Positions 18,611 to 40,080 of a stretch of DNA of 64,000 nt are shown here, in pieces; the stretch's first letter is position 1; each line of letters starts with the position of its first letter. Below the pieces are notes generated by a model that saw nothing but the letters and a program-made list of their open reading frames with translations, did not search any database and was not told where the DNA came from. The translations under genes were made by a program, and so were the position numbers. This stretch comes from Caldibacillus debilis DSM 16016 (GTDB lineage: Bacteria; Bacillota; Bacilli; Bacillales; Caldibacillaceae). The stretch is taken from positions 150-64,149 of the forward strand of contig NZ_KB912918.1 in assembly GCF_000383875.1 (NCBI RefSeq), written 5' to 3'.

Positions 18611-19533
18611 TTTACACCTTGACATTGAACCCTTCCGTTGACTACGTCATCCAGCTGGAAGAACTGAAGCTCGGGGAATTGAACCGGGTGTTGCGGGAAG
18701 CCAAATTCCCCGGCGGAAAAGGGATCAATGTTTCCCGGGTTTTGCAGCGGATGGGCGTATCGAGCAAGGCCCTCGGCTTCATCGGAGGATTCACCGGAAA
18801 ATATATTGAAGAACGCTTGAAACAGGAAAAGATCAGCTGCGATTTCGTGCACGTCAAAGGGGATACGCGGATCAACGTGAAACTGCAAGCGGGAACGGAA
18901 ACGGAGATCAACGCCAGCGGTCCGCCCATTTCCAAAGCCGATTTTGAAGCTTTAAAAGAAAAAATCGGCGCTCTCACCGGCCGGGATGTGCTCGTCTTGG
19001 CGGGAAGCGTCCCCGCCGTCCTGCCGGAGACGGCCTATGAGGAACTGGTGAAGATCTGCGTGCAAAACGGAACGAAATTCGTCGCCGACATGGAAGGGAG
19101 GCTGCTGGAAAAAGTCCTGCCCTACCGTCCTTTCCTGATAAAGCCGAACCATCATGAACTGGGAGAACTTTTCCATACGGAAATCGCCGATTTTGCCCAG
19201 GCGGTCGCCTGCGGCAAAAGATTGGTCCAAAGGGGAGCGGAAAATGTCATCGTTTCCATGGCGGATCAGGGGGCTGTCTTTGTCAGCCGGCAATCCGCCT
19301 TTATTGCCGAAGTGCCAAAGGGGGAGGTGAAAAGTTCGGTGGGGGCGGGCGACTCCATGGTTGCCGGCTTCCTCGCCAAATATGGAGAGACCGGAGACGT
19401 AAAAGAGGCCTTCCGTTACAGTGTCGCGTCGGGATGCGCCACGGCGTTTTCGCTGGATTTGTGCACGAAGGAGAAGGTGGAAGAAATATTGCCTCATATT
19501 ATCATTAAAAATTTCGGAGGAGATAGCGGATGA
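18607..19533 (+). CDS. fruK: 1-phosphofructokinase
   Basis: FruK (308 aa) is a PfkB-family kinase that phosphorylates fructose 1-phosphate to fructose 1,6-bisphosphate. Seen features are the N-terminal TLNPSVDYVI, the substrate-side FPGGKGINVSRVL, and the ATP/anion-hole motif VGAGDSMVAGFLAKY with the catalytic Asp in GAGDS. Start and stop overlap fruR and fruA by four bases each, so the three genes are tightly coupled. Confidence 0.95.
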   Translation: MIYTLTLNPSVDYVIQLEELKLGELNRVLREAKFPGGKGINVSRVLQRMGVSSKALGFIGGFTGKYIEERLKQEKISCDFVHVKGDTRINVKLQAGTETEINASGPPISKADFEALKEKIGALTGRDVLVLAGSVPAVLPETAYEELVKICVQNGTKFVADMEGRLLEKVLPYRPFLIKPNHHELGELFHTEIADFAQAVACGKRLVQRGAENVIVSMADQGAVFVSRQSAFIAEVPKGEVKSSVGAGDSMVAGFLAKYGETGDVKEAFRYSVASGCATAFSLDLCTKEKVEEILPHIIIKNFGGDSG

Positions 19534-25350: not shown

Positions 25351-26373
25351 TTGACAAAGCAGCCGCTACTGGAGATCAAAGACCTGACCACGTCTTTTAA
25401 AATCGGCGACGAATACTATGCGGCGGTGGATCATGTTTCATTGACCGTGAATGAAAACGAAGTGGTTGCCATCGTGGGAGAGTCCGGATGCGGAAAAAGC
25501 GCATTGGCTCTTTCCGTCATGAGGCTGCATCAAGAAGTGCGGACAAAGGTGGAAGGGGAAATCCTGTTTAAAGGCAGGAACCTGCTCCCCCTGTCCCTTT
25601 CCGATATGAACAAAGTCCGCGGAAGCGAGATCGGCATGATCTTTCAAGACCCTTTGACGGCGCTGAACCCGCTGATGACGGCGGGGAAGCAGATCGAAGA
25701 AAATATGCGGAATCACATGAAACTTTCCAATAAGGAGTATAAAGAACGCGCCATCGAACTGCTGAAAAAGGTCGGCATTCGCAATCCGGAACGGGTATAT
25801 GCCATGTACCCCCATGAATTGTCGGGAGGCATGAGGCAACGGGTCGTCATCGCCATCGCGATCGCCTGCAATCCCTCGCTTTTGATCGCCGACGAACCGA
25901 CGACGGCTTTGGACGTGACGATCCAGGCGCAAATCATGGATCTTTTGCGGGATCTGCAGGGGCAGATGAAGACGGGGATCATCCTGATCACCCATGATTT
26001 GGGCGTCGTCGCGGAAATGGCGGACCGGGTCGCCGTCATGTACGCCGGCGAAATCGTGGAGATCGCCGATGTCCGCACGATTTTCAACAATCCGTTGCAT
26101 CCCTATACCCGCTCCTTGCTAAACTCGATTCCTTCGACGACGGAAGTGAAGGATCGTCTCCACGTCATACAAGGGATCGTTCCTTCGCTGAGCAAATTGC
26201 CGCGAGCCGGCTGCCGTTTCCGGCACCGGATCCCGTGGATCGATGAATCGGTACACGAGGAAAACCCCGTGCTGCGCGAAGTGGAAAAAGGGCATTGGGT
26301 CCGATGCACCTGCTATCAGCATTTTCACTTTCCAGATACAGTATCGGAGGCACTGAAACATGACATTACTTAA
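25351..26373 (+). CDS. oppD: Oligopeptide ABC transporter ATP-binding protein (OppD/AppD type)
   Basis: A 340-residue ATPase with Walker A GESGCGKSALALS, signature LSGGMRQR, Walker B LLIADEPTTALD, H-loop ITHDLGVVAEMADR, and the oligopeptide-type C-terminal extension. That extension is cysteine-poor: the usual Cys cluster is partly replaced (AGCRFRHR, VRCTCYQH). It powers the OppBC channel with OppF. The TTG at 25351 has GAGGAGG eight bases upstream. First gene of a D-F-B-C-A operon; overlaps oppF by 14 bp. App- and Opp-type systems cannot be separated with certainty here. Confidence 0.9.
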   Translation: MTKQPLLEIKDLTTSFKIGDEYYAAVDHVSLTVNENEVVAIVGESGCGKSALALSVMRLHQEVRTKVEGEILFKGRNLLPLSLSDMNKVRGSEIGMIFQDPLTALNPLMTAGKQIEENMRNHMKLSNKEYKERAIELLKKVGIRNPERVYAMYPHELSGGMRQRVVIAIAIACNPSLLIADEPTTALDVTIQAQIMDLLRDLQGQMKTGIILITHDLGVVAEMADRVAVMYAGEIVEIADVRTIFNNPLHPYTRSLLNSIPSTTEVKDRLHVIQGIVPSLSKLPRAGCRFRHRIPWIDESVHEENPVLREVEKGHWVRCTCYQHFHFPDTVSEALKHDIT

Positions 26374-27295
26374 GGTGAATCATCTGAAAGTGTACTATCC
26401 CGTCCGCGGAGGCTTTTTCCGCCGGGTGGTGGATTACGTAAAAGCGGTGGATGACATCAGCTTCGAGATTCGGGAAGGGGAAACCTACGGACTGGTCGGG
26501 GAGTCGGGCTGCGGAAAAACGACGACGGGAAGGACGATCATCGGCTTGCTGAAAGCCACATCGGGGGAGATCTTATTCAATGATGTGGATTTGACGAAAT
26601 TGAAGAGGAGAGAATTTTTCCAATACAGAAGAGATATCCAGATGATCTTCCAGGATCCCTATTCTTCCTTGAACCCGAAAAAACGGATCTTGGATATCGT
26701 CGCGGAACCTTTCCGGAACTATGAAAAGTTTTCCCCGCAGGAGGAGAAACGTCGGGTTCAGGAATTGCTGGAAAGGGTGGGGATCAGCCCGGACTCCATC
26801 TATAAATACCCCCATGAATTTTCCGGCGGCCAAAGACAGCGGATCGGCATCGCCCGGGCACTGGCCCTGAAGCCGAAGCTGATCATCGCCGACGAACCGG
26901 TTTCGGCCCTGGACGTTTCGGTGCAGGCCCAAGTATTGAACTTTATGAAGGACATCCAGGAAGAATTTAAATTGTCCTATCTTTTTATCAGCCACGATTT
27001 GGGCATCATCCGCCACATGTGCGACCGGATCGGCATCATGTACCGCGGCCGCCTGGTGGAAGAAGGAACGGGGGAAGACATATATACGAATCCCCAGCAT
27101 ATATATACAAAAAGGCTCATTGCGGCCATACCCGACATCAAACCGGAAGAACGGGATAAGCATAAAGCCCTTCGGAAGGAAATTAACCAAGAATTTTCGG
27201 AGCATTTTGATAGATATTTGGATGCTGAGGGACGGATCTTCGATTTGAGGCCAGTTACGGAAACCCATAAAGTCGCGCTACCGTTGGAGTCGTAG
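26360..27295 (+). CDS. oppF: Oligopeptide ABC transporter ATP-binding protein (OppF type)
   Basis: The second ATPase (311 aa), with Walker A GESGCGKTTTGRTI, signature FSGGQRQR, Walker B LIIADEPVSALD and H-loop SHDLGIIRHMCDR. The N-terminal FFRRVVDYVKAVDDISFEI is typical of OppF/DppF subunits. The start lies within oppD, implying coupled translation. The C-terminus after IPDIKPEERDKHKALRKEI is slightly longer than usual and ends without the common Cys-rich motif. It pairs with OppD. Confidence 0.92.
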   Translation: MTLLKVNHLKVYYPVRGGFFRRVVDYVKAVDDISFEIREGETYGLVGESGCGKTTTGRTIIGLLKATSGEILFNDVDLTKLKRREFFQYRRDIQMIFQDPYSSLNPKKRILDIVAEPFRNYEKFSPQEEKRRVQELLERVGISPDSIYKYPHEFSGGQRQRIGIARALALKPKLIIADEPVSALDVSVQAQVLNFMKDIQEEFKLSYLFISHDLGIIRHMCDRIGIMYRGRLVEEGTGEDIYTNPQHIYTKRLIAAIPDIKPEERDKHKALRKEINQEFSEHFDRYLDAEGRIFDLRPVTETHKVALPLES

Positions 27296-27313
27296 GAGAG
27301 GAGTTGTCTGCAG

Positions 27314-28282
27314 ATGCTGAAGTTTATTTTGCGGCGAATTTTAGTCATGATCCCTCAGTTGATTCTTCTCAGCATTTTGGTTTTTTTGCTGGCGAAAATG
27401 ATGCCCGGTGACGCGTTGACGGGGAGGATCGCCGGCAATGCGAACATCGATCCGGAGACGGTCGCAAAATTGCGGGAAGAGCTCGGATTGAATGATCCCT
27501 GGCACGTCCAGTATTGGAATTGGATACAAAATTTGTCCCAGGGAGACTGGGGAATTTCGTACATCCACCAGGTCGAAGTGACGAAATTGTTGGGTAACCG
27601 GCTGTTAAACACGGTGAACTTGGGAATTTTTATCCTTGTGCTCACCTATATCATCGCCATTCCTTTGGGCATTGTCGCCGGACGCTGGACCAATTCGTGG
27701 GCGGACAAGGTGATCGTCGCCTATAACTATTTGAGCTACGCGACGCCATTATTCATTTTTGCCCTGTTCATGCTGTTCATTTTTGGCTATGTCTTGGGAT
27801 GGTTTCCGACGGGAGGCAGCGTGGACGTCCGCCTGGAAAAGGGAACGCTGGATTACTATATTAACAAATTTTATCATTTGATCCTTCCGGCTTTCTCGGC
27901 GGCACTGCTTTCGACGACGACGACCATTCAATATTTGCGCAGCGAAATCATCGACACGAAGGTAAGGGATTTTGTGAAAACGGCAAGGGCGAAGGGAACG
28001 CCCGAAAGGAAGGTCTACACGAGGCATATTTTGCGGAATTCCTTTTTGCCCATCGCAGCTTTTTTGGGTTACGAAATTACCGGAGTCATCAGCGGATCGA
28101 TTTTCATTGAATCGATTTTCAGCTACCCCGGAATAGGCCAATTGTTCGTCCAATCCATCGCGCAACGGGATTATCCGGTCGTCACGGCTCTCGTCATGCT
28201 CACCGGCTTTGCTACACTGATCGGGACATTGCTTTCGGACATCATCTTGAGCGCCGTCGACCCGAGGATCCGAATCGACTAG
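27314..28282 (+). CDS. oppB: Oligopeptide ABC transporter permease (OppB type)
   Basis: A 322-residue permease with six predicted helices and an N-terminal FILRRILVMIPQLILLSILV helix typical of OppB/DppB. The EAA loop is in VKTARAKGTPERKVYTRHIL, contacting the ATPases. The end DIILSAVDPRIRID is the family signature (YxxxDPRI). Eighteen bases after oppF, same operon. Confidence 0.93.
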   Translation: MLKFILRRILVMIPQLILLSILVFLLAKMMPGDALTGRIAGNANIDPETVAKLREELGLNDPWHVQYWNWIQNLSQGDWGISYIHQVEVTKLLGNRLLNTVNLGIFILVLTYIIAIPLGIVAGRWTNSWADKVIVAYNYLSYATPLFIFALFMLFIFGYVLGWFPTGGSVDVRLEKGTLDYYINKFYHLILPAFSAALLSTTTTIQYLRSEIIDTKVRDFVKTARAKGTPERKVYTRHILRNSFLPIAAFLGYEITGVISGSIFIESIFSYPGIGQLFVQSIAQRDYPVVTALVMLTGFATLIGTLLSDIILSAVDPRIRID

Positions 28283-28313
28283 AAGAAAAGGCCTGTTGAA
28301 AGGGGGATAAACG

Positions 28314-29222
28314 ATGAAGCCGGATATCGCCAATCCGGAAATGCCATTTGCTCAGGAAGAAAAATCGCCATCCAGCATGCGAATCATCTGGAGAGAGCTC
28401 CTTAAAGATAGAGTTGCCCTGTTTTCACTCGTCTTATTGACGATCCTTCTCATCATCGTTTACGGAGGTTCCTTGCTGATCGATGAAAAAGAAGTGACGA
28501 GAATCGATTTGTTTAACATGTATTCGCCGCCTTCGCCCGATAATTGGCTCGGCACCGATTACGGCGGCAGGGATATTTTCGGACAGCTGATCATCGGCGC
28601 GAGGAACTCCTTCACGATCGGTTTGTTGATCACCCTCCTTACGGGGCTGATCGGACTGACGATAGGATTGATCGCCGGCTATTTCGGCGGAGCGGTCGAC
28701 AACGTGATCATGCGGATCATCGATTTTATTCTCATCCTTCCCACGTTGATGCTCATTATCGTATTCGTCACCTTGGTGCCGAAATTTACGATCACCAATT
28801 TCATCCTGATCATGAGCGCCTTTTTATGGACGGGGAAGGCGAGGCTGATCCGTTCGAAAACGCTGGCGGAAAAGGAAATGGAATACGTGAGTGCCTCCCG
28901 GACATTGGGCACTCCCCATTGGAAAATCATTCTCTTTCAAATTCTGCCGAATTTAAGTTCCATCATCATCGTCAACCTGACCTTGAATCTCGCCGGAAAC
29001 ATCGGCATTGAAACCGGCTTGAGCTATCTCGGATTCGGACTTCCGGAAGACAAACCGAGCTTGGGGACATTGATCGGTTACGCGCGAAATCCGGAAGTCA
29101 TGCAAGGAAAATGGTGGGTTTGGTTGCCCGCATCATTGCTGATCCTGGTAATGATGCTGTGCATAAATTTCATCGGCCAGGCGCTGCGCCGTGCGGCCGA
29201 TGCAAGGCAAAGATTAGGATAA
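28314..29222 (+). CDS. oppC: Oligopeptide ABC transporter permease (OppC type)
   Basis: A 302-residue permease. The N-terminal cytoplasmic tail is followed by a helix, then NWLGTDYGGRDIFGQLIIGARNS-type sequence (28541 onward), the OppC/DppC hallmark of TDxxGRD. The EAA loop lies near YVSASRTLGTPHWKIILFQI. It ends FIGQALRRAADAR, as in the family. It forms the channel with OppB; 31 bases downstream of oppB with an AAAGGGGGATAA ribosome-binding region. Confidence 0.93.
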   Translation: MKPDIANPEMPFAQEEKSPSSMRIIWRELLKDRVALFSLVLLTILLIIVYGGSLLIDEKEVTRIDLFNMYSPPSPDNWLGTDYGGRDIFGQLIIGARNSFTIGLLITLLTGLIGLTIGLIAGYFGGAVDNVIMRIIDFILILPTLMLIIVFVTLVPKFTITNFILIMSAFLWTGKARLIRSKTLAEKEMEYVSASRTLGTPHWKIILFQILPNLSSIIIVNLTLNLAGNIGIETGLSYLGFGLPEDKPSLGTLIGYARNPEVMQGKWWVWLPASLLILVMMLCINFIGQALRRAADARQRLG

Positions 29223-29241
29223 AAAAGAAGGGGGATATTGG

Positions 29242-31011
29242 ATGAAAAAACTTAAGCTGTTGAGCCTTTTCATCGCCTTTGCGCTGCTGCTTTCCGCTTG
29301 CAGCTCCTCATCCGGCGGCAGCAAGAAAAAGACAGCGGAAAAGGTCGACACCAGCCTGTTCCCGCAGACCGTCAAAAACGACAAGGAGATCATCGAAGAC
29401 GGTACGTTGAATTACGGGCTGGTCACCGACACGCCCTTTGAAGGGACGTTGGACTACGCCTTCTATCAAGGGGCATACGACGCTGAAATCCTGCAATTTT
29501 TCAGCGAGCCGCTTTTCAGCTACAACGCCGACCATGAAATGACCAACGACGGTCCGGCGACTTTCGAGTTGTCCGATGACTGGAAAACGATCACCATCAA
29601 GATTTCCGACAAATTGAAATGGCATGACGGACAACCGGTAACCGCGGAAGATTACGAATATTCCTTCCTCGTCATCGGCCATCCGGATTACAAAGGTGTC
29701 CGCTATGACGCCCTCATGGAAAACATCGTCGGAATGGCGGAATATCATGCGGGCAAAGCGGATAAGATTTCCGGGATCGAGGTTCTCGATGAGCATACGG
29801 TGCGGATCCAATTTAAGAAAGCCAACCCGTCCCTCTTGACCGGATTGTGGCCTTACGCCATGCCGAAACATTATCTCGGGGACGTTCCGGTAAAGGATCT
29901 TGCCAAATCTGATAAGATCCGCACGAAACCGATCGGCTTCGGACCGTTCAAAGTGAAAAACATCGTTCCCGGCGAATCGGTGGAATTTGAACGGTTCGAC
30001 GATTACTGGAAAGGCAAACCGAAGCTGAAAACCGTTATCGTAAAAGTGGTTGACCCGTCGGTCGTTCTTGAATCGCTGAAGAAGGGCGAAATCGACATCG
30101 CCTATGGATTCCCGACCACCATGTATCCGGACGCCAAAAAACTGAAGAACGTCCAATACCTGGGAAGAATCGAAGATGCGTACACCTACATCGGTTTTAA
30201 ACTCGGGCATTGGGATGCCAAGAAAAATGAAGCGGTGATGGACAATCCGAAATTCCAAGATGTCCGTCTGCGCCAAGCCATGGCCTACGCCATCGACAAC
30301 AAGACGGTTGCCGAAAGATTCTATCACGGCTTGCGCGAACCGGCCACGACTTTGATCCCGAAATTCTTCAAGACCTGGCACAACGACAAGGTGAAAGGGT
30401 ACAACTACGATCCGGAAAAGGCGAAACAATTGCTGGATGAAGCGGGTTACAAAGACGTCGACGGTGACGGCTTCCGTGAAGATCCGAACGGCAAAAAATT
30501 CGTCATCAATTTCGCGTCGATGAGCGGCAGCGACGTCGCCGAACCGTTGGCCAAATTCTACATTCAAAACTGGAAAGATGTCGGTTTGAATGTGCAGCTG
30601 ACGAACGGCCGTCTGATCGAATTCAACTCCTTCTATGACATGATTGAAAAAGACGACCCGAACGTCGATATTTACCAAGCGGCCTGGGGCACCGGTACGG
30701 ACGTCGACCCGTGGGGCCTGTATTCGAAGAAAGCTCCGTTCAACTACAGCCGTTTTGTTGACGAAGAAAACGAACGGCTGCTGGAAGAAGGACATTCCGA
30801 AAAGGCCCTTGACAAAGAATACCGCAAGAAAATCTATGACCAATGGCAAGAATATATGGCGGAAAAAGTACCGGTCATTCCCACCCTTTACCGCTATGAA
30901 CTCTGGCCGGTCAACAACCGGGTGAAGAATTTCACCATCGAATGGGGCAAGAACAGCTTCATGTGGTCTGATGTCGGCGTAACTTCCGACAAACCGGAAG
31001 TTGCCAAATAA
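29242..31011 (+). CDS. oppA: Oligopeptide-binding lipoprotein (OppA type)
   Basis: A 589-residue extracytoplasmic binding protein (SBP_bac_5). The signal peptide MKKLKLLSLFIAFALLLSA ends at lipobox LSAC, followed by a Ser/Lys-rich linker. The mature part has KLKWHDGQPVTAEDYEYSF and RLRQAMAYAIDN, both characteristic of peptide-binding family members. It lies last in the operon, after the permeases, and is closed by a strong terminator. Codon use is strongly biased, consistent with high expression. The peptide preference cannot be read from sequence. Confidence 0.93.
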   Translation: MKKLKLLSLFIAFALLLSACSSSSGGSKKKTAEKVDTSLFPQTVKNDKEIIEDGTLNYGLVTDTPFEGTLDYAFYQGAYDAEILQFFSEPLFSYNADHEMTNDGPATFELSDDWKTITIKISDKLKWHDGQPVTAEDYEYSFLVIGHPDYKGVRYDALMENIVGMAEYHAGKADKISGIEVLDEHTVRIQFKKANPSLLTGLWPYAMPKHYLGDVPVKDLAKSDKIRTKPIGFGPFKVKNIVPGESVEFERFDDYWKGKPKLKTVIVKVVDPSVVLESLKKGEIDIAYGFPTTMYPDAKKLKNVQYLGRIEDAYTYIGFKLGHWDAKKNEAVMDNPKFQDVRLRQAMAYAIDNKTVAERFYHGLREPATTLIPKFFKTWHNDKVKGYNYDPEKAKQLLDEAGYKDVDGDGFREDPNGKKFVINFASMSGSDVAEPLAKFYIQNWKDVGLNVQLTNGRLIEFNSFYDMIEKDDPNVDIYQAAWGTGTDVDPWGLYSKKAPFNYSRFVDEENERLLEEGHSEKALDKEYRKKIYDQWQEYMAEKVPVIPTLYRYELWPVNNRVKNFTIEWGKNSFMWSDVGVTSDKPEVAK

Positions 31012-31012
31012 A

Positions 31013-31045
31013 AAAGAAGGCGGCGAAAGCCGCCTTTTTCTTTTT
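31013..31045 (+). terminator. Terminator of the opp operon
   Basis: AAGGCGGC (31017-31024), loop GAAA, GCCGCCTT (31029-31036), then TTTCTTTTT; starts two bases after oppA. Confidence 0.9.
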
Positions 31046-32069: not shown

Positions 32070-33269
32070 ATGCGGATGAATAAGAGGGAAATATGGAAAA
32101 AATTGAAAAAACAATTAAAAGCCAATCAGCATTTAATAGGTGTAGCTGCCGGTTCAGGATTAACTGGCCGGTATGCTGAAAAAGGCGGCGCCGATTTTAT
32201 TTTGGCGCTAAGTTCCGGAAAATTCCGGCAAATGGGTGTCAGTTCTCTTGCTGGATATCTGCCCTTTTCTAACAGTAATGAAATCGTCATGGATTTCGGG
32301 CTAAAAGAATTATTGCCGATCATCAAAAATATTCCGATCATTTTCGGTTTGATGGCCACTGATCCAACGATTGACCTAAAAAGCTATATCGCTTTGATTA
32401 AAGAAAAGGGCTTTGCGGGGATCAATAATTATCCGACGATAGGGTTAATCGACGGAAAATATCGGGAAGCTCTGGAAGAAGCAGATATTTCATATGATAA
32501 GGAAGTGGAAGCCATTTCGATCGCCAATGGGTTGGATCTCTTTACGGTAGCTTTTGTCTTTAACAAAACGCAAGCCATACAAATGACAAAGGCCGGAGCC
32601 GATGTCATTTGTGTGCACTTTGGCTTGACCAAAGGCGGAATGTTGGGCGCCAAATATGTTCAAACCCTGCAATCCGCTAAAAATTTGGCGACCGAGATTT
32701 TTGAGGAATGTCAAAAAATTAATCCAAATATCATTAAGATGATTTATGGCGGTCCCGTCAGCAAACCTGTAGATGTCCAATTTATGTATAATGGGACGGA
32801 TATACACGGATATATCGGCGGATCAGTTTTTGAACGGATTCCTTCTGAACAGGCCATTCTGCATGTTACCCAATCATTTAAACAAACCAATGATATCAAA
32901 TATGAACAACTCATTCAAAGAATTATTGACGGATTTAACACTCAAAAAGAATATATCGATTTTGTCAAGAAATATATCAGTTTACATTACAATGAGGAAA
33001 TTACCTTACATGAACTGGCCGGGATGTTGGGCTTGTCCAGACCCTATTTAAGCCTATTGTTCAAAACAGAAGTAGGGATTTCTTTTCGTGACTATTTGAT
33101 CGATTATCGGATTAACCGTGCCATTGAAATTTTAAAGGAAAAGAAAGTCCCGTTAACGATTGTATCGGAAATGGTCGGTTATCCCGATTATGCCCAGTTC
33201 AGTAAAATATTTAAGAAACGAACGGGGATGTCCCCGAAAGAATATGTAAAAACAAACATAAATCCATAA
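32070..33269 (+). CDS. One-component regulator: PEP-hydrolase-like TIM barrel fused to AraC HTH
   Basis: A 399-residue protein. Residues about 5-275 are a TIM-barrel of the PEP-hydrolase-like family (PF09370 type), closely parallel to the protein at 34588-35412. For example, GVAAGSGLTGRYAEKGGADF aligns with [20 protein letters not shown], and NNYPTIGLIDGKYREALEE with [19 protein letters not shown]. Residues about 300-399 are an AraC-type DNA-binding domain with two HTHs (ITLHELAGMLGLSRPYLSLL and VSEMVGYPDYAQFSKIFKKR). I infer that the barrel senses the substrate or product of the downstream enzyme. The start is ATG 32070 or 32076, after a GGGGGG run; the frame is open upstream. Confidence 0.8.
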   Translation: MRMNKREIWKKLKKQLKANQHLIGVAAGSGLTGRYAEKGGADFILALSSGKFRQMGVSSLAGYLPFSNSNEIVMDFGLKELLPIIKNIPIIFGLMATDPTIDLKSYIALIKEKGFAGINNYPTIGLIDGKYREALEEADISYDKEVEAISIANGLDLFTVAFVFNKTQAIQMTKAGADVICVHFGLTKGGMLGAKYVQTLQSAKNLATEIFEECQKINPNIIKMIYGGPVSKPVDVQFMYNGTDIHGYIGGSVFERIPSEQAILHVTQSFKQTNDIKYEQLIQRIIDGFNTQKEYIDFVKKYISLHYNEEITLHELAGMLGLSRPYLSLLFKTEVGISFRDYLIDYRINRAIEILKEKKVPLTIVSEMVGYPDYAQFSKIFKKRTGMSPKEYVKTNINP

Positions 33270-33318
33270 TCTTCAAACAAAAGAACATATATTTTCAATG
33301 ATGGAAGCGGTATCATTT

Positions 33319-33340
33319 GGGTGAAAATAAATTTTCACCC
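33319..33340. promoter_or_regulatory. Perfect 22-bp palindrome, probable operator
   Basis: GGGTGAAAAT, two bases (AA), ATTTTCACCC. It lies 20 bp before the GTG start of the next gene and lacks a T-run, so it reads as an operator rather than a terminator. Either it is the AraC-type regulator's site or it binds another repressor. Confidence 0.6.
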
Positions 33341-33359
33341 ATGGGAAAGGAGTGATACG

Positions 33360-34598
33360 GTGGACAAGACGATCGCTTTGGTCGGCACGTTCGATACAAA
33401 GGGTAAAGAGTTTTTGTTCGTTAAAGAATTGATCGAATCATTGGGTTTTCGCACGTTTACGATCCATACCGGTGTTTTTGAGCCGGTTTTTGAACCCGAT
33501 GTTTCGAATCGTGCAGTCGTTGCAGCTGCGGGAGGGGATATTGAAGAAATCGTTGAACGTAAAGACAGAGCCTATGCGACAGCTACGCTTGCAAAAGGAA
33601 TGGAAGTGTTATTGCCCGAGTTGTTTAAAGAAGGGAAATTTGATGGGGTTTTATCTTTCGGCGGTACGGGGGGCACTTCCATTGCAACAGCAGGCATGAG
33701 AAAGTTGCCGATTGGTGTTCCGAAAGTGATGGTTTCCACCGTTGCATCCGGAAATACGCTCCCTTATGTTGGAATGAGCGATATTGTCATGTTTCCGTCC
33801 ATCGTAGATATCGCAGGCATCAACTCGTTTTCGATTAAAATTTTTTCAAATGCTGTTTTTGCCATTGCCGGCATGCTGCAATATGAGCAAAAAACGACAA
33901 AGGAACAAAAACCATTAATTGCGGCGACCATGTTCGGCCTTACGACGCCTTGCATCAATTATGCAAAAAAATACTTGGAGGATCATGGATATGAAGTTTT
34001 GATCTTCCACGCAACGGGTATTGGCGGGAAAACGATGGAAAGCCTTATCGAAAACGGGTTTATTGAAGGAGTATTGGATATTACAACGACCGAATGGGCA
34101 GACGAGTTGGTGGGAGGAATTTTGGCGGCCGGTCCACATCGATTGGAAGCCGCAGCATTAAACCGGGTTCCTCAAGTAGTATCCCTTGGGGCGATTGATA
34201 TGGTCAATTTTGGACCGCGTGATACCGTCCCTGCAAAATTTGCCGGAAGGAAATTTTATCAGCATAATCCATCCGTCACCTTGATGCGGACGACCGTGGA
34301 AGAAAACAGGAAAATTGGCGAAAAGATTGCGGAAAAGTTAAATATGGCTTCCGGCAACACGGCATTATTGTTGCCGTTAAAAGGTCTTTCCGGTTTGGAT
34401 GCGGAAGGGCAACCATTCTATGGACCGGAAGAGGACAAGATGCTATTCGACACAATTAAAGAAAATATTGACCAAAGCAAAGTGGAGATCATTGAAATTA
34501 ATGCGCACATCAATGAAAAAGTATTCGGAGAAACTGCAGCTAAAAAACTTATCGAATTAATGGAAAGAAAGAAAGGAGAAAATGAACATGCCTTCTAG
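33360..34598 (+). CDS. Tm-1-like ATP-binding domain protein (UPF0261)
   Basis: A 412-residue soluble protein matching the UPF0261/Tm-1-like family, named after the tomato virus-resistance protein Tm-1, which binds ATP. Seen are the N-terminal [20 protein letters not shown] and the glycine-rich [19 protein letters not shown]. Also present are [17 protein letters not shown] and [15 protein letters not shown], the strongest family blocks. The GTG at 33360 has AAAGGAG seven bases upstream. It overlaps the next gene (PEP-hydrolase type) by 11 bp. These two families commonly occur side by side; the catabolic role is unknown. Confidence 0.85.
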
Positions 34599-35412
34599 AC
34601 AAGAAATTTTAAAACGATTTAGAGAAGAAATCGCCAAAGGAAGAATATTATTAGGGGTTGGAGCAGGTACAGGTATAACGGCAAAAAGCAGTGAAGCCGG
34701 CGGTGCGGATATGTTAATCGTTTATAATTCTGGCCGTTACAGAATGGCTGGACGCGGGTCATTGGCAGGTTTACTTCCATATGGTGATGCGAACCAAATT
34801 GTCGTTGAAATGGGCAATGAAGTGTTGACCGTTGTGAAAAATACGCCTGTGCTTGCAGGGGTTAACGGTACAGATCCCTTTCGAATCATGGATGTATTTT
34901 TAAAACAATTAAAGGACCAAGGTTTCAGCGGAGTACAAAATTTCCCGACGGTAGGATTGATTGATGGGGTGTTCCGGCAAAACTTGGAAGAAACAGGAAT
35001 GGGTTATGACTTGGAAGTGGATATGATTCGGAAAGCCCATGAATTGGACATGCTCACAACTCCATATGTTTTTGATGAAGAACAAGCAATAAAAATGGCA
35101 AATGCAGGTGCTGATATTTTAGTCGCTCACATGGGCTTAACGACGAAAGGTACAATTGGAGCCAAAACGGCTTTATCCCTGGACGACTGTGTTGAAAGAA
35201 TCCAAAGAATCGTTGATGCCGGACGATCCGTTAATCCTGACATTTTGGTAATTTGCCATGGAGGTCCTATCGCGGAACCTGAAGATGCCGAATACGTCAT
35301 TAAAAGGGTGGACGGCCTGGTTGGATTCTTTGGAGCATCCAGCATCGAAAGATTTGCTGCTGAGAAAGGGATTAAAGCTCAAACGGAAGCATTTAAACAG
35401 ATAAAAAGATAA
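34588..35412 (+). CDS. PEP-hydrolase-family TIM-barrel enzyme
   Basis: A 274-residue TIM-barrel protein of the phosphoenolpyruvate hydrolase/phosphonopyruvate-hydrolase-like family (PF09370 type). Conserved blocks are [42 protein letters not shown], and [16 protein letters not shown] near the C-terminal third. A paralogous domain forms the sensor of the AraC-type regulator two genes upstream. ATG 34588 is nine bases from AAAGGAG (34572-34578), better than ATG 34582 at three. Likely partner of the Tm-1-like protein; the chemistry is unproven. Confidence 0.82.
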
Positions 35413-35459: not shown

Positions 35460-35490
35460 GGGTGTCCCAAGATAAGGGCACCTTTTTAAT
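35460..35490 (+). terminator. Terminator after the PEP-hydrolase gene
   Basis: GGTGTCCC (35461-35468) pairs, with one bulge, with GGGCACC (35475-35481), then TTTTTAATATTTT. Confidence 0.65.
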
Positions 35491-35545
35491 ATTTTAGTAA
35501 GATTAGAGATGGGTTTGATTATTTTATTATTAGGAGGATGATTTT

Positions 35546-36253
35546 TTGCGGACGCTTGTTATCAGCGACATTCACGGTTGTCTGAATGAGTTCTTGGAAC
35601 TCTTGGGCCTGGTAGATTATCAAGCCGGTAAAGACCGGTTGATTTTGCTCGGGGATTACGTGGATCGCGGCCCCAAAAGCAAAGAAGTTGTACAAAAAGT
35701 AATGGATTTGGCGAAAAACGATAATGTCGTCGTTTTAAGGGGAAATCACGACCAGCGATTTGTAACATTAGTGGAGAATCGTAATCCTGAGATGCAAAAA
35801 ATTTTTATAAAATACGGCGGTCTAGAGACGCTGAAAAGCTATTGCCCCTTTCTTGAAGATAACGATTTGGTTGGGGCATTCGAATTCATCCGCAAAGCGT
35901 ATAGCCATCATATTGATTTTCTGAAAAAAACAAAACTTTATTATGAAGATAATCATTATATTTATGTCCATGCCGGTTTGAATCCAAATTATGAAAATTG
36001 GAAAAATCAACCGGAGAGGGATTTTTATACGATTAGGGGAGAGTTTATCAACCATAAATCAAATACCGAGAAAAAAGTGGTTTTTGGGCATACAGTAACG
36101 GTATTCATCCATGGTTTTGCGGATATTTGGTTTTCCGAAGATAAAATAGGGATCGATGGGGGATGTGCTTATGGGTATCAATTAAATTGTCTGGAAATCG
36201 GGACCGACCATAAGCTTAAGCAGTATCATGTACCTTGCAGAAGTATTTCATGA
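35546..36253 (+). CDS. PPP-family serine/threonine-type metallophosphatase
   Basis: A 235-residue calcineurin-like phosphoesterase of the bacterial PPP group, related to lambda phosphatase and PrpE. The metal-site motifs are intact: SDIHGCLNE (GDxHG-equivalent), LLGDYVDRGPKS, VVLRGNHDQRF, and HAGLNP followed by FGHTVT. The TTG at 35546 is supported by AGGAGG eight bases upstream. It is separated from the PEP-hydrolase gene by a terminator, so it is probably its own unit. Substrates could be phosphoproteins or dinucleotide polyphosphates. Confidence 0.85.
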   Translation: MRTLVISDIHGCLNEFLELLGLVDYQAGKDRLILLGDYVDRGPKSKEVVQKVMDLAKNDNVVVLRGNHDQRFVTLVENRNPEMQKIFIKYGGLETLKSYCPFLEDNDLVGAFEFIRKAYSHHIDFLKKTKLYYEDNHYIYVHAGLNPNYENWKNQPERDFYTIRGEFINHKSNTEKKVVFGHTVTVFIHGFADIWFSEDKIGIDGGCAYGYQLNCLEIGTDHKLKQYHVPCRSIS

Positions 36254-38609: not shown

Positions 38610-38744
38610 TTCCTTTCACCCTGTGTTTTGAATTTTGGCCTGGACCGCTCATTTCATCAAGGGTAAAGGCCCAAGGGCCTTCGCTTCGCTCACCCTTGAT
38701 TCATTTGCGGTCCAGGCATGGAAGCCATCAAGGGGTGAAAGGAA
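38610..38744. other. Large nested inverted repeat at the 3' side of the transposase gene
   Basis: Three nested arms: TTCCTTTCACCC (38610-38621) with GGGTGAAAGGAA (38733-38744); CCTGGACCGC (38639-38648) with GCGGTCCAGG (38707-38716); and ATCAAGGGT (38656-38664) with ACCCTTGAT (38692-38700). The outer right arm overlaps the last codons of the transposase. It could stop or insulate transcription. Confidence 0.8.
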
Positions 38745-40080
38745 TTGGAGTCGGTTCTCTCAAACCGTTATAGCCAAATTCAGCCCGTTGTGGTATCCTT
38801 GGCTTGGGTAGGAATGGTTTTCGCCAAGGATGATTGGCAGCGGGCTTGTGAGGCGTTCTCACGATGCCCGCCTTTTCTTTTTGCGAAGATTCTTGGCGAT
38901 CAGGCTTTTGCACTTCTTCCAGCAGGTATTTTTCCCCTTTGTACCAGATAAATCGATCCCCGTTTAGGGTTTCACGGACTTCAACCCGTGTTTTCACGGG
39001 AATGGTTTGTTTGGAGTTCTTCGTTACGATCTTGTACGTCTTTCCACCATACGATACGGTTTCGCCAGAACCGACCGTGCGTTTCTCCCGATAGCACAGG
39101 ATATGATCCAAGGATTGTTCCTCAGCCAAGGGAACAAACGCGCTTTCCGGATCGGCAGGTTGAACCGCAAAGAGATGATTATGTTTACGGATAAGTTCCG
39201 GAAGAACCTGATTTGCTTCTTCGATGGTGTTGACATTGCGAAGACGCAATTCCACCACGCAGCGATCCTGTAAGGTTTCAAAGAGGCGTTCGATTCGTCC
39301 TTTGGCCTGTGGCGAAAGGGCCTTGATGTGGGTAATCCCCAATTCCTGTAAGACTTGGCCGAACTGGGAGAGCGGAGGGGCTTCACCGGCCAGCTCTTGT
39401 TCGATCGACAGGGTTGCTTCTTTTGGCGAACGGAAGATGGTATGCCGGTCGGAGTAAATACTCATCGGGATTCCCTTTTGTTCGATCATCTGTTTGAGGA
39501 GAAGCAAATACCCTTCCGTATCCTCCTGAGGACGAAACACGGCAGCCACGATCTCTCCCGTGGCATCGTCAATCGCTGCCAGTAAAGCAAATGGCTTGGC
39601 TCGGTCCTCCAACCAGGGATGAAAGCTGGCATCCACTTGAACGAGCATCCCCGCCTGAGGTTTTCTAGGCCTTGGACGATGGGCTTTGGGTGGACGACGC
39701 TTTCGCTTCGGCGGGAGGTTGGATTCACAGCGAATTCGGCGAACGGTAGAAGGGCTTATGTGAATACCCTCATGCTGTGCCAACAATTCAGCCAAATGAT
39801 GATCATTACAGTTGCGATAACGCTCGCTTGTGAGAAGATTACGAATATATTCACGTACTTCATTTGAAAGTGCGTGTGCCGGTTTTCGCCCACGATTTTT
39901 ATGGATGATTCCGGTTTCTCCCTCCTCCAGGATTCTTTTCTTCAGGCGAAAAACCTGGCGGGTGCTTAATCCTAGTTCATTCGCAGTTTCACGTACAGTC
40001 ATGAGTCCATGAATATGTTTCAACATCACATTGTAACGCCACAATTCTTTTCTGGTCATCGTAATTTTCTCCTGTCCCAT
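38728..40080 (-). CDS. IS1202/ISNCY-family DDE transposase
   Basis: A 450-residue transposase. The N-terminal HTH (about 25-55) reads GLMTVRETANELGLSTRQVF, followed by an HTH-like second half (about 65-120). The catalytic core has Asp150 in LVQVDASFHPWLED, Asp211 in IYSDRHTIFRS and Glu264 in KGRIERLFETLQDR, the expected D, D, E triad. The C-terminus is basic and proline-rich. No frameshift or stop is seen, so the element is potentially active. The start at 40080 (GTG/ATG context GQEKITMTRKELW) could instead be the Met at residue 8. Confidence 0.9.
   Translation of the reverse strand: MGQEKITMTRKELWRYNVMLKHIHGLMTVRETANELGLSTRQVFRLKKRILEEGETGIIHKNRGRKPAHALSNEVREYIRNLLTSERYRNCNDHHLAELLAQHEGIHISPSTVRRIRCESNLPPKRKRRPPKAHRPRPRKPQAGMLVQVDASFHPWLEDRAKPFALLAAIDDATGEIVAAVFRPQEDTEGYLLLLKQMIEQKGIPMSIYSDRHTIFRSPKEATLSIEQELAGEAPPLSQFGQVLQELGITHIKALSPQAKGRIERLFETLQDRCVVELRLRNVNTIEEANQVLPELIRKHNHLFAVQPADPESAFVPLAEEQSLDHILCYREKRTVGSGETVSYGGKTYKIVTKNSKQTIPVKTRVEVRETLNGDRFIWYKGEKYLLEEVQKPDRQESSQKEKAGIVRTPHKPAANHPWRKPFLPKPRIPQRAEFGYNGLREPTPIPFTP

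Follow-up and report, generated by a model that had tools for sequence, protein, structure and literature searches.

A PF09370 barrel fused to an AraC-type domain as an apparent pseudoenzyme sensor beside its enzyme paralogue and a Tm-1-like gene in Caldibacillus debilis

A three-gene cassette was examined in a stretch of 64000 nucleotides from Caldibacillus debilis DSM 16016 (RefSeq assembly GCF_000383875.1, contig NZ_KB912918.1, positions 150 to 64149 of the forward strand), here called the window, whose own numbering is used throughout and in which features lie on the forward strand unless otherwise stated. The first gene (32070 to 33269, with an alternative start at 32076 in an open frame that extends up to 31959) encodes a regulator of 397 residues in which a triosephosphate isomerase (TIM)-type barrel of family PF09370 (residues 5–270, E 4.9e-106) is followed by an AraC-type DNA-binding domain (HTH_18, residues 314–392, E 1.3e-18), and matches to HTH_18 (67.5 bits) and, in two stretches, to HTH_AraC (60.8 bits) place it in the AraC/XylS family. 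The second gene (33360 to 34598) encodes a Tm-1-like protein with both the N and C domains of UPF0261 (E 9.1e-59 and 4.7e-96); its start at 33360, which is preceded by AAAGGAG, was preferred over an in-frame alternative at 33321. The third gene (34582 to 35412) encodes a stand-alone barrel with PF09370 alone (E 3.3e-131).

Both barrels cover the whole PF09370 domain, at 436.8 and 354.2 bits against a curated cut-off of 33.8 bits, and they share 38% identity in an alignment that includes the corresponding genes of four relatives, which is far beyond chance. The domains and coordinates of the three genes and the paralogy of the two barrels thus agree with the initial annotation. No PF09370 gene beyond these two and no second UPF0261 match was found in the assembly (95% complete, 40 contigs).

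The region upstream of the Tm-1-like gene carries candidate control elements, which were sought with the established consensus sequences for the catabolite-responsive element (cre) bound by CcpA and for -24/-12 promoters. A cre box (TGGAAGCGGTATCA, 33302 to 33315) matches the consensus perfectly and overlaps a putative -10 hexamer (TATCAT, 33311 to 33316), which was assigned from sequence and alignment and for which no good -35 was seen. The window contains 2 perfect cre matches against 0.76 expected. The genome also encodes CcpA (TIGR01481, 538.7 bits with a cut-off of 442.35), and, as both a cre box and a CcpA gene are present, the operon is predicted to belong to the CcpA regulon and to be repressed by glucose. 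The other perfect cre-like match in the window lies at 19245 to 19258 on the reverse strand. A candidate AraC-type operator (33253 to 33282) is formed by the direct repeats CAAACATAA (33253 to 33261) and CAAACAAAA (33274 to 33282), 21 bp apart, the first overlapping the last codons of the regulator gene and the second abutting the -35 region. AraC binds tandem direct-repeat sites with the activator site abutting the -35, and these repeats are candidates for binding by the AraC domain of the regulator.

The initial annotation had proposed looking for the same three-gene arrangement elsewhere, and it was found in other genomes, in Bacilli, Clostridium and Erysipelotrichaceae, with the trio staying together while the flanking genes, and any extra neighbours, vary between lineages. 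The trio was present in 5 of 8 genomes of the family to which C. debilis belongs, its own included, and the other 53 genomes of the same search yielded no PF09370 gene. PF09370 matches above the cut-off occurred in 33 of 398 genomes in a class sample and in 38 of 398 in a phylum sample, the two samples overlapping. Fused regulators, in frames of ~390 residues or longer, were found in 18 genomes, 9 of AraC type and 9 of sigma54 type (one, in G428, broken), and each of the 18 has a stand-alone barrel within ~3.5 kb, start to start (partial in G469). A contig scan with an alignment of the regulator recovered 28 loci, 22 with an AraC-type regulator (frameshifted in L040, cut by the contig end in L035), and the stand-alone barrel adjoins this regulator in 21 of the 22, L035 being the exception and the L030 barrel being cut by a contig end. 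The sensor barrel also occurs on sigma54 activators, in L037 and L038 and, from matches to local profiles, in L117–L119, L121–L124, L131, the broken L120, and plasmid loci L047, L052 and L053. As the spread is patchy, it suggests horizontal movement of the cassette. Two broken copies were seen, in L040 (10001 to 11193), where the regulator is split over two overlapping frames, and in L120 (7112 to 10317), where the regulator is split and a piece of the Tm-1-like gene is in one frame with the barrel. In the Chloroflexota loci L041 and L042 the stand-alone barrels are divergent, and a local profile found no Tm-1-like gene near them.

The relationship between regulator and stand-alone barrels was examined in a tree. 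A total of 129 barrels was collected (30 AraC-type, 13 sigma54-type and 86 stand-alone by label), from which the identical row L032 was dropped to leave 128; pieces shorter than ~220 residues, such as L040, the L120 regulator and the L030 enzyme, were excluded. In the careful tree, one branch (support 100/99; 95 in a quick tree) separated the 43 regulator barrels, comprising 30 of AraC type (counting the contig-cut L035) and 13 of sigma54 type, from the 85 stand-alone barrels, and the AraC-type barrels formed one clade (100/98). The sigma54-type barrels did not come together as one clade in the careful tree and several of their rows were long-branched, hence we make no claim that the sigma54 fusion arose only once. 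An origin of the regulator barrels from the second stand-alone barrel of loci in which two different stand-alone PF09370 barrels surround the Tm-1-like gene (L125, L126, L127, L132–L135 and L137) was considered and rejected, as both barrels of these two-barrel loci fall on the enzyme side.

Regulator and enzyme distances were found to correlate, with r values of 0.89 for 27 AraC-type pairs, 0.78 for 12 sigma54-type pairs and 0.92 for all 39 pairs, each of which was reached in 0 of 2000 permutations. Loci L128, L120 and L052, and those without exactly one regulator and one enzyme, were excluded from this comparison. Regulator distances exceeded enzyme distances by a median factor of ~3.4, i.e. 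the regulators diverge faster.

Conserved columns were compared between 61 main enzymes, 30 AraC-type and 10 Bacillota sigma54-type barrels, and 41 columns were common to all three groups, while 21 were kept in the enzymes and lost in both regulator types. TIM barrels bind ligands at the C-terminal ends of their strands. Strands were assigned from predicted models of the regulator and the enzyme (predicted local distance difference test, pLDDT, 83 and 84, respectively), the position of strand 5 in the enzyme being taken from the regulator model. With columns treated as independent, both sets were enriched at the C-terminal strand ends that form the catalytic face, the enzyme-only columns with 10 of 21 (3.7 expected, p 0.001; 0 on the opposite face) and the shared invariant columns with 15 of 41 (7.3 expected, p 0.0014; 9 on the opposite face).

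Tyr48, just behind strand 2, and His226, at the end of strand 7, both lie at the predicted pocket and are each present in 84 of 85 stand-alone barrels and in 0 of 43 regulators. Tyr48 is replaced by Leu or Phe and His226 by Tyr, the C. debilis regulator having Leu and Tyr, and Tyr162 is replaced by Phe in 40 of 43 regulators. None of the 43 has lost Arg54, Asn71, Asn120, Glu145, Gly228 or Ser253, and Glu136 and Asp98 are kept in 42, Gly227 in 41, Thr187 in 40 and His183 in 39. The same division was seen in rows outside the column choice, as 23 of 24 stand-alone barrels (16 from two-barrel loci and 8 divergent) keep each of Tyr48 and His226 and 3 of 3 Proteobacterial regulators are without both. 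Tyr48 and His226 were used as a signature of active PF09370 enzymes, defined in this analysis and not taken from the literature, and the signature is present in the stand-alone barrel of the window and absent from the regulator. As Tyr48 and His226 are lost and much of the pocket is kept, the regulator barrel is best read as a pseudoenzyme sensor, predicted to bind but not to catalyse. The initial annotation had cast this barrel as the enzyme domain reused as a sensor and had proposed comparing the active sites of the two barrel models; the predicted pocket was largely common, with many residues shared and no sign of an unrelated site, except that Tyr48 and His226 are missing from the regulator.

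The promoter class at the Tm-1-like gene follows the regulator type. In the gap between the regulator and Tm-1-like genes, a cre box with at most 1 mismatch was found in 22 of 28 AraC-type loci (shuffles: mean 0.76, maximum 4), and a -24/-12 site with at most 2 mismatches in 11 of 11 Bacillota sigma54-type loci (shuffles: mean 0.53, maximum 3). The same thresholds were applied to the 250 bases 5' of the Tm-1-like gene in 72 loci. Here, -24/-12 sites were found in 11 of 14 sigma54-type loci, 0 of 29 AraC-type loci and 1 of 29 loci without a fused regulator, and cre boxes in 1 of 14, 23 of 29 and 1 of 29, respectively (shuffle means 0.63, 1.33 with a maximum of 5, and 0.95). The promoter of L019 lies outside the 250 bases used for the cre count, and L016 is among the 23 through a second cre site, its aligned box having 2 mismatches. 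In L021, where the gene order is Tm-1-like, enzyme, regulator, a cre box and repeats still precede the Tm-1-like gene.

Repeats resembling the candidate operator were also found in relatives. In nine loci of the window's kin, aligned at the cre box, direct repeats 21 bp apart were seen, and among spacings of 10 to 35 identity was highest at this one. Pairs of AACATAA at 21 bp, with at most 2 mismatches in 14 positions, occurred in 14 of 29 AraC-type loci (shuffles: mean 0.38, maximum 3), 0 of 14 sigma54-type loci and 0 of 29 others, and the next best of the 15 spacings tried gave 9 loci.

The model of the stand-alone enzyme was closest to 2P10 (57% identity over 252 aligned residues, Z 37.4), followed by tryptophan synthase alpha (TrpA), indoleglycerol-phosphate synthase (IGPS) and TIM at Z ~19–20. 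After 2P10, the best 50 matches listed were mostly TrpA, IGPS and TIM, a result that leaves room for a relationship to phosphoenolpyruvate (PEP) mutase. PEP mutase was one of many barrels matched by the regulator model in Foldseek (about E 2e-7), and no Pfam match to the PEP mutase/isocitrate lyase superfamily was found for the barrels in the window. The names 'PEP hydrolase' and 'phosphono-ligand' used in the initial annotation are not upheld, as the label stems from the title of the 2P10 entry and the enzyme model resembles TrpA, IGPS and TIM barrels; that title, 'phosphonopyruvate hydrolase', likewise gained no support in this analysis. Barrels of the latter types hold phosphate at strands 7 and 8. 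A GG after strand 7 and a G-S after strand 8 are kept in nearly all PF09370 barrels of both kinds, a pattern which we take to resemble their phosphate-holding motif.

Clues to the substrate were sought in a scan of neighbours for 38 genes chosen from the locus lists. Most Bacillota AraC-type loci consist of the cassette without its own transporter in reach. Sugar ABC transporters lie near the pair in L039, L145 and 4 of 10 plasmid loci (L048, L049, L052 and L053), Gfo/Idh/MocA oxidoreductases in L039, L049 and L053, xylose-isomerase-like barrels in L039 and L145, and cupins in some loci. A branched-chain-type transporter is near the pair in L037 and another ABC transporter in Haloarcula; no ABC transporter was found nearby in plasmid loci L045, L046, L050 and L051 (4 of 10). 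On account of these neighbouring genes and of the RuBisCO-like proteins described below, our guess is a phosphorylated sugar-acid or keto-acid compound; given the variety of neighbours, a single reaction may be used in several pathways. Neither the oligopeptide transporter genes that lie upstream in the window nor argG/argH were accepted as pointers to the substrate, since each flanks the cassette only in some genomes.

All 8 two-barrel loci, which come from Bacillota genomes, encode a RuBisCO-like protein (a partial one in L127), 5 of the 8 also encode a ComB-like phosphatase, and the RuBisCO-like protein of L126 is closest in the PDB to 2,3-diketo-5-methylthiopentyl-1-phosphate enolase. These loci possibly represent a separate, undescribed RuBisCO-like pathway. 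A RuBisCO-like protein was likewise seen in L139.

The domain composition, the paralogy, the single regulator side of the tree, the loss of residues and the promoter elements matched to regulator type are observed, and it is likely, in our view, that the cassette is a self-sensing catabolic module in which a pseudoenzyme sensor controls the operon of its own paralogue. We infer ligand binding, activation, the class of substrate and the division of labour, as follows. An ancient duplicate of a PF09370 enzyme would have lost catalysis, retained much of the remaining pocket and been joined to an output domain, an AraC domain in one lineage and a sigma54 activator in others. The C. debilis regulator would be made independently of the operon, and a substrate or intermediate of the pathway, probably phosphorylated and sugar-acid-like, would fill the dead pocket, whereupon the AraC domain would bind the repeats at 33253 to 33282 by the weak -35 and activate the operon (33360 to 35412). 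As long as preferred sugars are available, CcpA at the cre box over the -10 would silence the operon. Processing of the compound would fall jointly to the active barrel and the Tm-1-like protein, whose name implies ATP binding.

A broader proposal, which we put forward tentatively and consider plausible without calling it probable, is that one pseudoenzyme sensor lineage split once from the enzyme and travelled with the pair through Bacillota into Proteobacteria, and that exchanges of its output, AraC or sigma54 activator, went along with changes in the promoter class of the operon. It would keep a frozen copy of the ligand specificity of the enzyme, such that a screen of the sensor would show what the pair originally did in metabolism.

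The regulator barrel could instead sense the enzyme protein, through mixed oligomers in which the AraC domain responds to free enzyme or to the ligand state of the enzyme. This would fit with two barrels that are paralogous and co-inherited, with a regulator found near the enzyme wherever contigs allow, and with the six chains of the 2P10 entry, which make oligomers plausible. However, invariant columns concentrate at the pocket face, as for a ligand site, and the ~3.4 times faster divergence of the regulators does not suggest a tightly conserved interface, making protein sensing unlikely. A trigger enzyme, in which the regulator barrel is still catalytic and reports flux, would account for the retention of R54, N71, N120, E136, H183, G228 and S253 in all or nearly all regulators, but is hard to reconcile with the absence from 43 of 43 regulators of two residues that are each found in 84 of 85 stand-alone barrels, and we regard it as highly improbable.

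It is also conceivable that the regulator controls other genes, its position by the operon being incidental and CcpA alone setting operon expression, with the oligopeptide transporter operon upstream as a possible target. That operon ends at a terminator-like hairpin at 31014 and was not seen, by eye, beside the cassette in four family relatives. More generally, flanks differ by lineage while the trio stays together, and the promoter type at the Tm-1-like gene follows that of the regulator, so that control of other genes appears quite unlikely. Nothing found so far points to a regulator that acts elsewhere and leaves 33360 to 35412 uncontrolled, a case for which the initial annotation had allowed.

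Several observations weigh against a pseudoenzyme sensor controlling the operon of its paralogue. The catalytic roles of Tyr48 and His226 are deduced from conservation only, the p-values for the pocket face assume independent columns, and the correlation of distances could arise from shared vertical descent alone. The Proteobacterial regulators alter further pocket residues (H183N and T187N) and, because His183 and Thr187 are changed, their ligand may differ; the three Proteobacterial sigma54-type loci also have no -24/-12 site in the 250 bases before the Tm-1-like gene. In the same interval, a cre box at up to 1 mismatch is missing in 6 of 29 AraC-type loci. The AACATAA motif was derived from the data in which it was counted, its spacing preference fades when 3 mismatches are allowed (22 of 29 loci at 21 bp versus 21 of 29 at 11 bp), and the Erysipelotrichaceae loci L030–L033 and L036 do not fit it (4–5 mismatches). 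Many loci are near relatives, so that the cre, -24/-12 and repeat counts are not independent. Finally, L034 and L128 carry an AraC-type regulator with no recognisable Tm-1-like gene in the neighbourhood examined, and sugar-type neighbours are missing from many loci, including that in the window.

Other elements were seen in and around the operon. A perfect 11-bp inverted repeat (TGGGTGAAAAT/ATTTTCACCCA, 33318 to 33341) lies immediately 5' of the ribosome-binding site that serves the Tm-1-like gene. Although its folding is better than that of shuffled sequences (z -2.38), it was rejected as an operator as it was not seen by eye in the gaps of other loci. In the gaps of L111, L116, L136, L027 and L030–L033, a hairpin-like repeat with a T run was seen by eye at or after the putative -10, and these hairpins are candidates for a terminator of the regulator gene or an attenuator. 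A terminator-like hairpin with a T run (35460 to 35493) lies 3' of the operon and was judged by its form and place, because a scan of the window gave 7 terminator-like sites against 6.4 in shuffles; the number of sites in this simple promoter and terminator scan was no higher than in shuffles.

Beyond this hairpin is a metallophosphoesterase gene (35546 to 36253), which, among the loci compared, adjoins the cassette elsewhere only in L016 (Fervidibacillus halotolerans, 64% identical). Upstream, the oligopeptide ABC transporter operon (25351 to 31011) is closed by the terminator-like hairpin at 31014 to 31039 and is an unrelated flank. A gene for an ISNCY-family transposase (38728 to 40080) is on the reverse strand.

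Several known systems bear on the cassette. Reuse of an enzyme fold as a sensor is known from the MocR/GabR-type regulators, and AraC/XylS catabolic regulators have the same kind of output domain as the C. debilis regulator, whose candidate direct repeats, 21 bp apart, would match their repeat geometry; it differs from both groups in that its sensor, a (beta/alpha)8 barrel, is a paralogue of the adjacent enzyme. The PF09370-sigma54 activators share with the AraC-type regulators the same side of the tree, the Tm-1-like/enzyme neighbourhood and the loss of the two residues, but have an AAA+ sigma54 output, and those in Bacillota have a -24/-12 promoter, not cre. The protein of entry 2P10 (mll9387), a 'phosphoenolpyruvate hydrolase-like' member of PF09370, matches the stand-alone barrel (E 6.1e-116) and the regulator barrel (E 1.1e-65); it has the Tyr and His of the signature, whereas the regulator lacks both and adds the AraC domain. 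No catalytic activity of 2P10 was found to be established in the literature examined.

Tm-1, the tomato virus resistance protein, binds ATP. The UPF0261 protein of the window matches Tm-1 (E 6.3e-95; UPF0261 structures 3WRW–3WRY and 9MPY) and 9MPY itself (E 4.6e-65). The two domains are in one protein in the plant and in two genes, beside a regulator gene, in the window. According to the available part of PMC5028733, Tm-1 is a fusion of the UPF0261 and PF09370 families, the pair occurs in bacteria, archaea, fungi and plants, and PF09370, which carries the database name 'TIM-barrel signal transduction', falls by tree and domain structure into four groups of barrels, three of them bacterial only. 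This classification may already show regulator fusions; the terms AraC, HTH, sigma and DNA-binding are absent from the available main text of that article. Given the family name and the barrel-sigma54 relatives, an enzyme-like sensor is not wholly unforeseen. Elsewhere, again in the parts available, a UPF0261 gene is listed from a signature-tagged mutant screen in a comparison of Brucella S19 (PMC2364660), and a profiling study pairs COG5441 with COG5564 in fungi (PMC8963296). In the literature searched on the pair, on barrel-AraC and barrel-sigma54 fusions and on enzyme-derived regulators, no functional account or substrate was found.

The cassette clearly illustrates the conversion of an enzyme into what appears to be the sensor of its own operon, in which output domain and promoter class change together. 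A sensor that probably binds the substrate without consuming it is a direct handle on the system, as the ligand could be identified by screening the regulator, and knowing it would give the native function of the gene family to which the tomato virus-resistance gene Tm-1 belongs. If the proposal is true, screening the sensor would reveal the original role of the pair from which this plant antiviral gene was made.

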